From contig NZ_JAAKEG010000014.1 in the NCBI RefSeq assembly GCF_011039075.1, forward strand, positions 1-47,143: 47,143 nt of DNA, in the 5' to 3' direction. Numbering within the stretch: the first letter of the stretch is position 1; each line of letters begins with the position of its first letter. Made by a program: the position numbers and the translations under genes. Source of the stretch: Adlercreutzia sp. ZJ304 (GTDB lineage: Bacteria > Actinomycetota > Coriobacteriia > Coriobacteriales > Eggerthellaceae). Below, in pieces: positions 42,691 through 47,143 of this stretch. The notes beneath the pieces are model-generated. The model ran no database searches. It was not told the origin of the DNA and saw only the letters and a program-made list of their open reading frames with translations.

Positions 42691-42719
42691 TTTTTGCCTA
42701 GCTTATATGTAGATATAAT
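42691..42719 (+). promoter_or_regulatory. Promoter of the sodium symporter gene
   Basis: A perfect -10 TATAAT lies at 42714-42719, with TTTTTG at 42691-42696 exactly 17 bp upstream as a weak -35. This fits activation by the divergent LysR protein. Start of transcription near 42726 rules out the long upstream open frame and supports ATG 42781. Confidence 0.65.
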
Positions 42720-42780
42720 TCAGGAAAGACAACATATCCCCTATTCGGGAGCACTAAGCATCCCAATGAAAGGCTACTAT

Positions 42781-44163
42781 ATGGAGCGCGAGCAGTTCAA
42801 AAGCCGATTGGGATTCATTCTAATTAGCGCAGGCTGTGCCATAGGTCTTGGAAATGTATGGCGTTTTCCTTATATAACCGGTCAATACGGCGGCGCTGCG
42901 TTTGTGGTTATGTTCTTGGTGTTTCTTGTTATATTTGCGCTTCCCATTTTGGTTATGGAATTTGCCGTTGGGCGCGCAAGTCAACTTGGCGTGGCGCGCA
43001 GCTTCGATAAGCTAGAACCGCCCGCCACAAAATGGCACCGGTTCAAATGGGTAGCACTATGCGGTAACTACCTGCTTATGATGTTTTATACAGCCGTATG
43101 TGGTTGGATGTTGGCTTTCATGGTGAAAAGCGCTATGGGCACATTCAGCGGAATGGATGCCACACAAGTTGGAGGCGTTTTCAATGCGCTTATGGGAAAT
43201 CCGCTTGAAATGAGCGCATACACACTAATAACTGTTCTAATTGGCGTGCTTGTAACGCGCGCGGGCGTTCGCAATGGAGTAGAGCGTATCACGAAATTTA
43301 TGATGGGCGCTTTGTTCGTGGTGCTTCTTGTGCTAGTTATACGCGCCGTAACGCTGCCGGGCGCAGCCGATGGATTGATGTTTTACCTTATGCCCGATTT
43401 CGGCAGACTGTTCGCAGAACCCAGCACTTTCTTTGACGCTATGCTAGCCGCCATGGGACAAGCGTTTTTTACAGTGTCGGTTGGTATTGGCTCTATGTCG
43501 ATATTTGGCAGCTATATAAACAAAAGCTATACCCTTACCGGAGAAGCGCTGCGCATTGCTGGACTAGATACGCTTGTAGCCATTATGGCTGGTCTGATAA
43601 TATTTCCAGCCTGTTTCGCATTCGGAGTAGAACCCGGCAGCGGACCCGGTCTTGTATTCATAACCCTACCCAGTGTGTTTAACCAGATACCACTAGGTAA
43701 TCTTTGGGGTGCATTATTTTTTGTATTTATGAGTTTCGCCGCACTTTCTACAGTTATAGCGGTTTTTGAAAACATCATGAGTTTTGGAATGGACCAGTGG
43801 GGATGGTCGAGAAAGAAATCTTGCACCATAAATGGAGTGGCGCTAGCCATACTATCTATGCCCTGCGTGCTTGGATTTAGCGTATGGTCGGGCGTTCAAA
43901 TACCGGGTATTGGCAACATTCAGGCAATTGAAGACTTTATAGTGTCGAATAATCTGCTTCCACTGGGCGCACTTGTATTTTTGCTATTCTGCACACGTAA
44001 ACAAGGCTGGGGCTGGGATGCATTTCTTAGCGAAGCAAACACAGGTAAAGGAATCCATTACCCCAAAGCAATTAAACCTTATTTAAAATATGTGCTGCCT
44101 ATCCTTGTTCTGATAGTAATGGTTGCCGGATACATCCCAATTGTTCAAAGCTGGTTTACCTAG
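42781..44163 (+). CDS. Neurotransmitter:sodium symporter (NSS/SNF) family transporter
   Basis: NSS proteins import amino acids or related amines with sodium. The start RLGFILISAGCAIGLGNVWRFPYITGQYGGAAF is the family signature (helix 1 with the unwound GxGxxWRFP part binding sodium and substrate). There are 11 or 12 helices over 460 residues, typical of bacterial members such as TnaT or MhsT. AFFTVSVGIGSMSIFGSYI (helix 6 region) and SFAALSTVIAVFENIMS (helix 8) are also conserved. ATG 42781 has AAAGG 8 nt upstream and follows a good promoter. The substrate cannot be read; a tryptophan- or tyrosine-like amino acid is plausible from family knowledge. Confidence 0.9.
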   Translation: MEREQFKSRLGFILISAGCAIGLGNVWRFPYITGQYGGAAFVVMFLVFLVIFALPILVMEFAVGRASQLGVARSFDKLEPPATKWHRFKWVALCGNYLLMMFYTAVCGWMLAFMVKSAMGTFSGMDATQVGGVFNALMGNPLEMSAYTLITVLIGVLVTRAGVRNGVERITKFMMGALFVVLLVLVIRAVTLPGAADGLMFYLMPDFGRLFAEPSTFFDAMLAAMGQAFFTVSVGIGSMSIFGSYINKSYTLTGEALRIAGLDTLVAIMAGLIIFPACFAFGVEPGSGPGLVFITLPSVFNQIPLGNLWGALFFVFMSFAALSTVIAVFENIMSFGMDQWGWSRKKSCTINGVALAILSMPCVLGFSVWSGVQIPGIGNIQAIEDFIVSNNLLPLGALVFLLFCTRKQGWGWDAFLSEANTGKGIHYPKAIKPYLKYVLPILVLIVMVAGYIPIVQSWFT

Positions 44164-44234: not shown

Positions 44235-44882
44235 CTAACTTAGCGTGCACTTCAAAAGCGATGCTGCGTTTCTGTAGAAAGGAATGCGAGTTTGCTCGCA
44301 TACCTTATCTGCAAAACGAGGCATCCAAGTTTGAACATGATTATCCATGAACTGCTGGAAAGCAGCTTCAGGCGTGCCACCCGGCAAATCCTCAAGCGAA
44401 ACAGCCGTTTGGCTTACATCAACACCAGATGCAAGCATGGCAAGATATTGGAGAAGTTCCAGCTCGGTTGCTACATAGTCTAGCGGCTCGTTCGTGCCTT
44501 CAGGTTGACCAAGCCCGCATGCGTTGCAAAACCGCTCCACATCCATAGAATGCGGATTCACAAACAAAAGCCCTTGTACGCCGTCGTCTTCTGCCCGCCA
44601 TATTCCCTCATATGGAGACACAGCTGGATCGGGTGCTCCAATAAACAAATAAGTGGCTTCTGCGCGCAAGGCATGCAGAAAAGCTTCAGCGTCATTGCTT
44701 TTTTCCGAATAGGTATCACATTCCCAATCTAGGTCTAGTGCTTCTGTTATCTCTTTAGCAGCATCAAGCCATTCCCCGCTTACAACTGCTTGCGAAAGCG
44801 CCGTATCGGGATAGCGAAAACTAAATGCAAGAAGTTCATATAGTGCAGCACGCACATGCCACATCTTAGTTGTATTAGGCAT
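44235..44882 (-). CDS. TorD/DmsD-family redox-enzyme maturation chaperone
   Basis: TorD-type chaperones bind the signal peptide and fold of molybdenum/tungsten oxidoreductases until cofactor is loaded. The 215-residue all-helical protein has the N-terminal helix RAALYELLAFSFRYPD, LHALRAEATYLFIGAPDPAVSPYEGIW with the family's Y-x-x-LF and SPYES-like motifs, and DYVATELELLQYLA, the E-x-DH-like helix. ATG 44882 has GGGAGG about 6 nt upstream and overlaps the preceding gene by 8 nt. It is the last gene of the operon with NrfD; its client enzyme is probably encoded beyond the window edge. Confidence 0.88.
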   Translation of the reverse strand: MPNTTKMWHVRAALYELLAFSFRYPDTALSQAVVSGEWLDAAKEITEALDLDWECDTYSEKSNDAEAFLHALRAEATYLFIGAPDPAVSPYEGIWRAEDDGVQGLLFVNPHSMDVERFCNACGLGQPEGTNEPLDYVATELELLQYLAMLASGVDVSQTAVSLEDLPGGTPEAAFQQFMDNHVQTWMPRFADKVCEQTRIPFYRNAASLLKCTLS

Positions 44883-45318
44883 TTGATTCCTCCCTTTTTG
44901 ATGCGTGAGGCTCCGCCTTCCAAGAACAATACGCTACCTTAATATTCAATACTATATGCACAAACAATACCGCCATAAGAACCTTAGCTGATATGGCATG
45001 CAGCGGATCCCAGAAATAATACCCGCCAGCATAAAACCCAAATGTTGGCAGGACTGTGCCCGAAACCATAATTCCCGACACCGCACAAATAGCAAGACTT
45101 GCCAAAATGATGATATTTAAAGCAAATCTGGCTGTTTTTATCCCGCTTTTCAGCATTCCTTTAGCAGTTATATTATGTGCAGCACAATGCACCACAAGAG
45201 CTAAAGTTGCAAAAATCCCTATCCATTCATGAGCTGGAATGCCGAAAATTGCAGGAAATGCCGAAAGCACATAAAGCGCGAGAAGAAATACATCCAATAC
45301 AATAAACCACTTATTCAT
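44875..45318 (-). CDS. DUF4405-like b-type cytochrome membrane protein
   Basis: The 147-residue protein has four membrane helices with several histidines near their ends: IPAHEWIGIFATLALVVHCAAHN and WDPLHAISAKVLMAVLFVHIVLNIK. Paired His in two helices is the pattern of small b-type cytochromes such as DUF4405 proteins, which often work with cytochrome c-like proteins. It likely passes electrons between the membrane quinone pool and its neighbours. I chose ATG 45318 because GAGGAT lies 4 nt upstream and the frame overlaps the preceding stop by 8 nt; the open frame to 45363 adds a non-membrane head. Confidence 0.7.
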   Translation of the reverse strand: MNKWFIVLDVFLLALYVLSAFPAIFGIPAHEWIGIFATLALVVHCAAHNITAKGMLKSGIKTARFALNIIILASLAICAVSGIMVSGTVLPTFGFYAGGYYFWDPLHAISAKVLMAVLFVHIVLNIKVAYCSWKAEPHASKREESNA

Positions 45319-45745
45319 GGGTATCCTCTTCTCTATTTGACGAAACGCGCACATCTTGCGCATTTTGATGCTGTAAGCCGTTGTTCTTCGATAGCAAGCG
45401 CGTAATAGCTACCAAAACTACAACAAGTACTACAGGCATTAGTATCCATATGTTAAGAGACGCATCACTTGCTTGGTGATATCGCGTAAAAAGGGTATCC
45501 CAAGCATGGCATTCTAGCGAAGCACATGCCGCCTCGGGACAAACCATTTCATGCACGCCGTCCGGTTGCGGCACGTCTGCAAAACCATGACAAGTGCCCG
45601 AGGCACATCCGACAACAGGACATAGAGACGTTTCAGTTATGGGATAGATGCCACTCTCGGGTTCCACAGCAAAGCTAACACCCAACACGCCCATGCCAAA
45701 AACAAGCAGCACGACAACTGTAATAAGAGTCTTCTTCATCTGCAT
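45311..45745 (-). CDS. Membrane-anchored protein with two CPx3CASx2CH motifs (cytochrome c-like)
   Basis: The 144-residue protein has an N-terminal signal/anchor helix (about 3-26), a short outer domain and a second helix (about 97-117) with a basic, hydrophilic cytoplasmic tail. The outer domain holds two copies of one motif: CPVVGCASGTCH (Cys42, Cys47, Cys52, His53) and CPEAACASLECH (Cys69, Cys74, Cys79, His80), 27 residues apart. Each contains C-x4-C-H, a known but rare heme c attachment variant, plus an extra CxxxxC cysteine. It may bind two hemes or iron-sulfur/zinc. Gene order nrfD, this gene, DUF4405, torD suggests an electron-transfer subunit of a molybdo-oxidoreductase. I know no named family for it. 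Confidence 0.75.
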   Translation of the reverse strand: MQMKKTLITVVVLLVFGMGVLGVSFAVEPESGIYPITETSLCPVVGCASGTCHGFADVPQPDGVHEMVCPEAACASLECHAWDTLFTRYHQASDASLNIWILMPVVLVVVLVAITRLLSKNNGLQHQNAQDVRVSSNREEDTHE

Positions 45746-45883: not shown

Positions 45884-47143
45884 CTATTCAGTCTTATCTT
45901 TTAAGGGCAGATACTTCACACCTAAAAGGAATATAAGAATTGCTAGACCAACTACACCTATCGTTATTCCACACTCAAGAAGGGACGGCCAATAAACGAT
46001 TGATTCGTATGCTCCAGATAGACCTGCAGTCCAATTTGTGATGGTAGAAGAACTTATAGCGCTTGGCCATTCGATGTTTGGAATCTGAAAGCCTCCAACA
46101 AGTAGTTGTGTGCGCTTGCAGAAGATGCCAATGATAGCCAAAAGGCTAGCTATGACTATAAGTGGATTTGTGCGAAGACGCGGGCAGAAGCATACAACTA
46201 TACAAATTATGCCGCCGATTATCTCTATCCAGAAAAACGGAGCTAGAGGTCCTGCAACTAGCATCCATACGATATCTGCACCTGAAGCTGCTGGAAAGCC
46301 TGCTGTTAGAAGGTCGCATGCAAAGAAGTATAGATCCACACATACAAATGTGCCTAAAAGCTTTGCTAGCTTTACTATATGAGCCTGCTCAAGTGCAAGG
46401 TATCCACATTTTTTAAGCGCAATAGCAATACATATAATAAGAGCTGTTCCGCAGACCAAAGCAGAAGATACAAACCATGGGGCTAGAAGGGCTGTGTACC
46501 ACATTTCGCGTCCCTGCTGTAGACCAAATATCCAAGCAGTTACGCTATGAACTAGTACTGCACAAATAAGAGCTACTACACTTATTATGCGAAGAGCACG
46601 TGCAGATACCTTGCCACTTTCATATTTCAGCTGTGCCCAAAGATATACACAAGACAGTATTAGATATATACCCAATACTATGATGTCCCACATTAGCGGA
46701 CTTGCAAGATTTGAGTATGCAAATAGCTCCCAAAGGCGCGCAGGTTGTCCCAAATCTACTACTACAAATCCAATAGCAGCGATAGTACATGCGATAGAGG
46801 AAAATACTGCGATTTTGCTAATTGCTCCAAAACCTTGTATTCCAAATGCCTTAGGTACAGAAGATATGATTAGACCTCCTGCACTAAGACCTACAAAAAA
46901 CATGAACATAGTAATGTATAAGCCCCAGCTATCAAGGTTTCTCATGGATGTTTGCACCATGCCACCTGTAAGCTGTATACCCCATAGCACAATTCCTGCT
47001 ACAGCAAGTATTGCACACACCAAAATTCCTATATTTACACCCTTGTTGTTAAACAATGCACCCTTAGGCTTTGCTTGTTTTTGTTCGCCTGATGTGGGCG
47101 ATTTGACATTGGCGGCAGTAGCCGCAGAAGTTGTCTCAGTCAT
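45884..47143 (-). CDS. nrfD: NrfD/PsrC-type membrane quinone oxidoreductase subunit
   Basis: NrfD-family proteins (NrfD, PsrC, DmsC-like) link the quinone pool to iron-sulfur subunits of respiratory molybdo-enzymes. The 419-residue protein has a hydrophilic Thr/Ala/Lys head and about ten membrane helices. WGLYITMFMFFVGLSAGGLIIS is the family's typical helix start, followed by VVDLGQPARLWELF and NLASPLMWDIIVLGIYLILS. Later, LLAPWFVSSALVCGTAL and PLAPFFWIEIIGG fit the core. The ATG sits exactly at the window edge (47143), and the N-terminal residues look like a natural start. The upstream operon part, likely the catalytic and iron-sulfur subunits, is outside the window. The terminal 1.2 kb is more AT-rich in synonymous positions than neighbours. 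Confidence 0.9.
   Translation of the reverse strand: MTETTSAATAANVKSPTSGEQKQAKPKGALFNNKGVNIGILVCAILAVAGIVLWGIQLTGGMVQTSMRNLDSWGLYITMFMFFVGLSAGGLIISSVPKAFGIQGFGAISKIAVFSSIACTIAAIGFVVVDLGQPARLWELFAYSNLASPLMWDIIVLGIYLILSCVYLWAQLKYESGKVSARALRIISVVALICAVLVHSVTAWIFGLQQGREMWYTALLAPWFVSSALVCGTALIICIAIALKKCGYLALEQAHIVKLAKLLGTFVCVDLYFFACDLLTAGFPAASGADIVWMLVAGPLAPFFWIEIIGGIICIVVCFCPRLRTNPLIVIASLLAIIGIFCKRTQLLVGGFQIPNIEWPSAISSSTITNWTAGLSGAYESIVYWPSLLECGITIGVVGLAILIFLLGVKYLPLKDKTE

Follow-up and report, generated by a model that had tools for sequence, protein, structure and literature searches.

A conserved membrane protein of Coriobacteriia with two CPx3Cx4CH motifs, a probable c-type electron-transfer subunit encoded in molybdoenzyme operons

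Background

The class Coriobacteriia includes common gut bacteria, and its family Eggerthellaceae possesses many molybdoenzymes, which transform drugs, dietary compounds and host molecules and whose membrane wiring is poorly known. Multiheme cytochromes with CX4CH heme sites are exemplified by cytochrome c3 of Desulfovibrio. In Methanosarcina, which has a system of the CxxxY type, heme is attached to MmcA at CX3CH and CX4CH sites (PMC11024163), and the CxxxY-type CcmE is a marker of System I* (PMC3601427; PMC9084895). The DsrMKJOP complex, which places c-type heme beside a b cytochrome and an FeS protein, contains DsrJ, a triheme cytochrome c that has been called unusual (Grein 2010, as cited in PMC4423706). 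The catechol dehydroxylases Dadh, Cadh and Hcdh of gut Actinobacteria have been described with one putative membrane anchor (PMC7028382), and a DUF4405 protein has been shown to bind heme b (PMC11334425). Here we describe a small protein encoded in the window (the whole stretch of DNA analysed, 47,143 nucleotides of Adlercreutzia sp. ZJ304) that is, on the evidence of its gene neighbourhood, a conserved component of the respiratory molybdoenzymes of Coriobacteriia.

Results and discussion

The motif protein and its operon

The first-pass annotation had described two CPx3CASx2CH motifs in a membrane-anchored protein, linked to NrfD, a DUF4405-like b cytochrome and a TorD chaperone, and this was borne out both by the open reading frame, in which the two motifs are in frame, and by Pfam matches for the three neighbours (Table 1). 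Both motifs fit C-P-x3-C-A-S-x2-C-H and are located between two hydrophobic helices, the protein consisting of a short positive N-tail, the first helix, an acidic loop of about 65 residues that carries the motifs, and the second helix. CXXCH is absent from the protein, which has two CX4CH sites instead, and so is a twin-arginine signal. Mean net charges over 33 family members are +1.9 for the N-tail, -8.7 for the loop and +0.9 for the C-tail, a pattern that, by the positive-inside rule, predicts a loop outside the membrane; the AlphaFold model (mean pLDDT 55.8, below 50 in the loop) is too poor to inform. A six-frame scan of the window for C-x4-C-x4-CH gave just these two matches in open frames, two others crossing stop codons. 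First-order Markov shuffling of the window yielded 0.18 matches per window, with a maximum of 2. A chance origin is ruled out because the motifs are conserved in relatives.

Table 1. Location of the motif gene, its two motifs and the adjoining genes in the window
Feature	Position	Strand	Remarks
TorD/NarJ-type chaperone (Nitrate_red_del, PF02613)	44235..44882	-	overlaps DUF4405 gene by 8 nt
DUF4405 (PF14358) b-type cytochrome, four conserved His	44875..45318	-	ATG overlaps end of motif gene by 8 nt
Two-helix membrane protein, 144 aa, two CPx3Cx4CH motifs	45311..45745	-	ORF, ATG start
Motif 2, CPEAACASLECH	45506..45541	-	
Motif 1, CPVVGCASGTCH	45587..45622	-	
NrfD/PsrC-type membrane subunit (PF03916)	45884..47143	-	

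The overlaps between the motif, DUF4405 and TorD genes are consistent with coupled translation. Just past the chaperone gene, beside a LysR regulator, there is a gene of the sodium:neurotransmitter symporter family (SNF; 42694-44163, forward strand).

The catalytic molybdo-subunit lies outside the window, on an overlapping contig (C8), whose end is identical to the final 614 bases of the window (46530-47143). This contig carries the MopA of the operon, with a Tat signal (TRRNFLK), the FeS subunit and upstream genes, giving the order MopA(Tat)-FeS-NrfD-[motif gene]-DUF4405-TorD. Near-identical NrfD sequence in two operons of this genome broke the assembly, and the second operon is split over contigs C30 and C10. 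Encoding a Tat-exported MopA, an FeS subunit and NrfD, the operon specifies a complex iron-sulfur molybdoenzyme of the DMSO reductase family. The best models for MopA were DMSO-reductase type II and DmsA/YnfE, with scores far below the cut-offs (for instance, 358 bits against a cut-off of 985 for TIGR03479), and MopA fell below the curated cut-off of every named subtype model (DmsABC, PhsABC, NarG, SerA, EbdA).

An unnamed family of Coriobacteriia

No credible match to the motif protein was detected in Pfam, NCBIfam, PHROGs or PDB sequences, and neither the protein nor its relatives matched any cytochrome c family in Pfam, NCBIfam or PDB sequences. A literature search on the family found nothing, and, in line with the first reading, which knew no family with the duplicated motif, none of the family libraries used includes the protein. 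The motif gene is present in about 49 of 138 Eggerthellaceae genomes; the search matched 50, one of which (G134) was removed as spurious, since the match has in-frame stops and lies inside another reading frame. The Adlercreutzia genome itself possesses a second copy, 69% identical, on contig C10. Weak matches on its contigs C30 and C29 were rejected because they overlap other reading frames and contain in-frame stops.

Relatives also occur elsewhere in the class. A class-wide profile search of Coriobacteriia added family f6, with three copies in genome G407 and one each in G412 and G422, together with a clear member in G156 and weak matches in G153 and G221, both of which share the motif and a DUF4405 neighbour. 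A phylum-wide profile search of the sampled Actinomycetota gave no member outside Coriobacteriia, returning Eggerthellaceae and one marginal match with in-frame stops, and among the DUF4405 loci fetched from outside Coriobacteriia none had the motif alongside. Judged by these comparisons, the motif protein represents a real, conserved and so far unnamed family of Coriobacteriia.

Conservation of the motifs

All six cysteines and both histidines of the CH dipeptides are invariant in 33 aligned members. The same residues, together with the proline after the first cysteine of each unit, are kept in 60 distinct double-motif sequences, and although these residues also served as search criteria for that set, free alignments show the same invariant columns. 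Changes in spacing are small, and the first CH and the second CP are separated by 15 residues in 59 of the 60 sequences. Motif 2 has CX4CH throughout, and motif 1 has CX4CH in 54 sequences and CX6CH in six, the latter found in one lineage (f6, plus locus L052). The A and S of "CAS" vary between members, and CPx4C or C-x6-CH occurs in some lineages. A methionine precedes the second CP at short distance in 59 of the 60 sequences (two residues before motif 2 in the protein described here). The other loop histidines (VHEM and RYHQ) vary among the 33 aligned members, so bis-His ligation is unsupported across the family.

The relative in G153 has a single motif, which suggests that one motif equals one functional site and means that the third cysteine cannot serve solely in a disulfide between motifs. 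A role of the cysteines in disulfides or in a thiol-disulfide relay, which would make the protein a folding or assembly factor or a structural adaptor of the complex instead of an electron carrier, is in our opinion quite improbable. Six cysteines in a small loop outside the membrane, a gene just before that of the chaperone and weak matches of two members to the CcmH family (best E 0.045) would agree with such a role, but it leaves the strict CH histidine of every unit unexplained, and the standing partner is a b cytochrome, not a thiol enzyme.

Alternatively, the protein could be an exoplasmic subunit of redox or structural function, with the three invariant cysteines and one invariant histidine of each unit forming a non-heme metal site for iron, zinc or a small FeS cluster. 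The lone unit in G153, which implies that a unit is self-contained, and the readily tolerated variation in spacing would both suit such a site. However, a single metal would have to be bound by a cysteine and a histidine that are direct neighbours, an unusual arrangement except in heme c, and insertion of an FeS cluster before export is unlikely given the lack of a twin-arginine signal. Together with the heme-attachment genes considered below, these points make a non-heme site unlikely.

Partner genes

NrfD lies upstream and DUF4405 downstream of the motif gene in all 30 loci compared, 25 from Eggerthellaceae and five from f6, for which the proteins of locus L007 served as queries. The FeS and Mop genes are found further upstream, and TorD is usually downstream. 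An NrfD-like gene, a GntR regulator and an SPFH/HflK-like protein head many of these operons (for instance L136:5133-7718 and L007:1135-3624), a stomatin-type protein being an odd neighbour for a molybdoenzyme. Between loci, FeS and NrfD subunits are mostly about 57-78% identical, whereas catalytic subunits are mostly 25-45% identical, which indicates that a single electron-transfer module is shared by several enzymes. Counted by genome, an FeS gene of this type and the motif gene occur together in 48 cases, the FeS gene without the motif gene in five, the motif gene without the FeS gene in one and neither in 84. Genomes G077, G078 and G079 have 9-11 FeS genes of the operon type and one motif gene each, and therefore the module is not used by every molybdoenzyme of this type. 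Their FeS copy number points to an expansion of molybdoenzymes.

The co-occurrence with NrfD and TorD that the first-pass annotation had drawn attention to thus holds for NrfD throughout these loci and for TorD in most, but distant relatives keep only DUF4405 adjacent. In G156, G221 and G153 the motif protein adjoins DUF4405, and no Mop gene of the operon type was detected in the stretches fetched around these motif genes. These loci suggest a basic unit made up of the b/c pair. The proposed assignment of the protein to a respiratory molybdoenzyme, upheld by the single operon that joins it to a Tat-exported molybdoenzyme, FeS, NrfD, DUF4405 and a chaperone, can be refined, as its most constant partner is not the molybdoenzyme but the DUF4405 b cytochrome. 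The DUF4405 partners keep their four histidines; a structure model of DUF4405 searched with Foldseek gave generic helical matches alone.

Heme-attachment genes

The Adlercreutzia genome encodes CcmE with CPSKY (CxxxY type), CcmF, CcmB, CcmC and a CcmA-type ATPase. This System I* cluster (L042, G000:C25:27000-36000, with CcmE at L042:1042-1692) adjoins a cytochrome c3-type protein. System II was rejected as the maturation route in this genome, since its ResB match corresponds to the C-terminal portion of a protein resembling CcmF; System I* therefore applies. Among the Eggerthellaceae genomes a Ccm marker is present in 48 of 49 carriers of the motif gene versus 68 of 89 non-carriers (p 5e-4, uncorrected for shared ancestry). 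The sole carrier lacking it, G017, has its operon on an 11.9-kb contig (C1, locus L057) with a tetranucleotide profile that correlates at 0.92-0.97 with genus g6 and at 0.80-0.89 with its own genome; this contig is probably mis-binned, and G017 was set aside as evidence against heme. The marker is also present in G412, G422, G156, G153 and G221. In G407, which is 77% complete and has three copies of the motif gene, CcmE and CcmF/C were not detected.

The G407 copies are what would be expected if Ccm were not needed, either because the units hold a non-heme metal or because the protein, instead of being a c-type cytochrome, is a heme sensor or heme carrier whose heme is non-covalently bound and ligated by the thiolate of the CP cysteine. 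The CP dipeptide, invariant in both units, resembles heme regulatory CP motifs. Nevertheless, the Ccm association speaks against a non-heme site and, like the strict second and third cysteines followed by CH, favours covalent attachment, so that we regard non-covalent binding as very unlikely.

Proposed function

It is likely, on balance, that the motif protein acts as an exoplasmic c-type (CX4CH) electron-transfer subunit, probably di-heme, in partnership with the DUF4405 b cytochrome. Heme c is favoured because the CH dipeptides are invariant, the four-His partner belongs to a family of which one protein is shown to bind heme b, and heme-attachment genes accompany the motif gene; a loop expected outside the membrane and the System I* cluster agree with it, and the initial reading of C-x4-C-H as a heme c site is in this respect indirectly supported, with heme itself still predicted from sequence. 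Pointing the other way are G407, the change from CX4 to CX6, the unexplained third cysteine and the lack of a fully conserved distal histidine.

In the mechanism that we propose, the loop would comprise two self-contained C-P-x(3,4)-C-x(4,6)-C-H units, each most likely holding one covalent heme c by its second and third cysteines and the histidine of CH, at a CX4CH or rarely CX6CH site into which the System I* Ccm machinery would insert the heme. The distal ligand may be the extra CP cysteine or the conserved methionine before motif 2. Heme b of DUF4405, within the membrane, would exchange electrons with the motif hemes on the outer side, which would in turn exchange them with the FeS/Mo subunits, either alongside NrfD or jointly with it. 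In Eggerthellaceae the respiratory complex to which the b/c pair would belong would comprise NrfD, an FeS subunit with several clusters and a molybdoenzyme of the DMSO-reductase type that is exported by Tat. What the sequences show is the gene family, its invariant residues, the topology signal, the operon and the Ccm genes; the heme, this electron path and its direction, a putative quinone link, the formation of a complex and a role for the CP cysteine are postulated.

The motif protein is probably a new variant of c-type cytochrome. We also advance, tentatively, the possibility of a new minimal di-heme c module, in which two tandem CPx3Cx4-6CH units, perhaps with axial ligation by the CP cysteine thiolate, are paired with DUF4405 to give a b/c unit for electron transfer, which Coriobacteriia would combine with molybdoenzymes whose catalytic subunits differ widely. 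The family marks a conserved electron-delivery module. If it carries heme c, its attachment site, which includes a third cysteine and varies naturally between CX4 and CX6, would make maturation specificity and cysteine ligation testable.

Comparison with known systems

The motif protein resembles DsrJ in being small and located outside the membrane, with c-type heme (in the motif protein, predicted), and in its neighbours: DsrJ works beside the b cytochrome DsrM, the FeS protein DsrO and the NrfD-type DsrP, and the NrfD and FeS subunits of the operon give matches, at scores under the cut-offs, to the DsrP and DsrO models. The proposed layout would work as DsrM and DsrJ do on DsrO and DsrP. Nevertheless, the motif protein has two motifs instead of three hemes, CX4CH in place of CXXCH, and two helices; in the operon DUF4405 replaces the NarI-like DsrM, and there is a molybdoenzyme and no DsrK. 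Identity with DsrJ was rejected, as there was no NCBIfam match at E 1 or better and there are no CXXCH sites.

With MmcA of Methanosarcina (PMC11024163) the motif protein shares Cys-x4-Cys-His and a System I* with CxxxY CcmE. MmcA and cytochrome c3 also have CXXCH sites and lack the CP cysteine, whereas in the much smaller motif protein both sites are CX4CH (or CX6CH) and a third cysteine is present. The DUF4405 partner, with its four conserved histidines, is like the flavinylation-associated DUF4405 cytochromes (PMC11334425), but those adjoin ApbE and flavinylated proteins, and here the neighbours are the CPx3Cx4CH protein and usually a molybdoenzyme. Finally, the Tat-exported catechol dehydroxylases of Eggerthella (Dadh, Cadh, Hcdh; PMC7028382) have, like the motif operons, an exported Mo catalytic subunit, a 4Fe-4S subunit and a membrane anchor, to which the motif operons always add DUF4405 and the motif protein.
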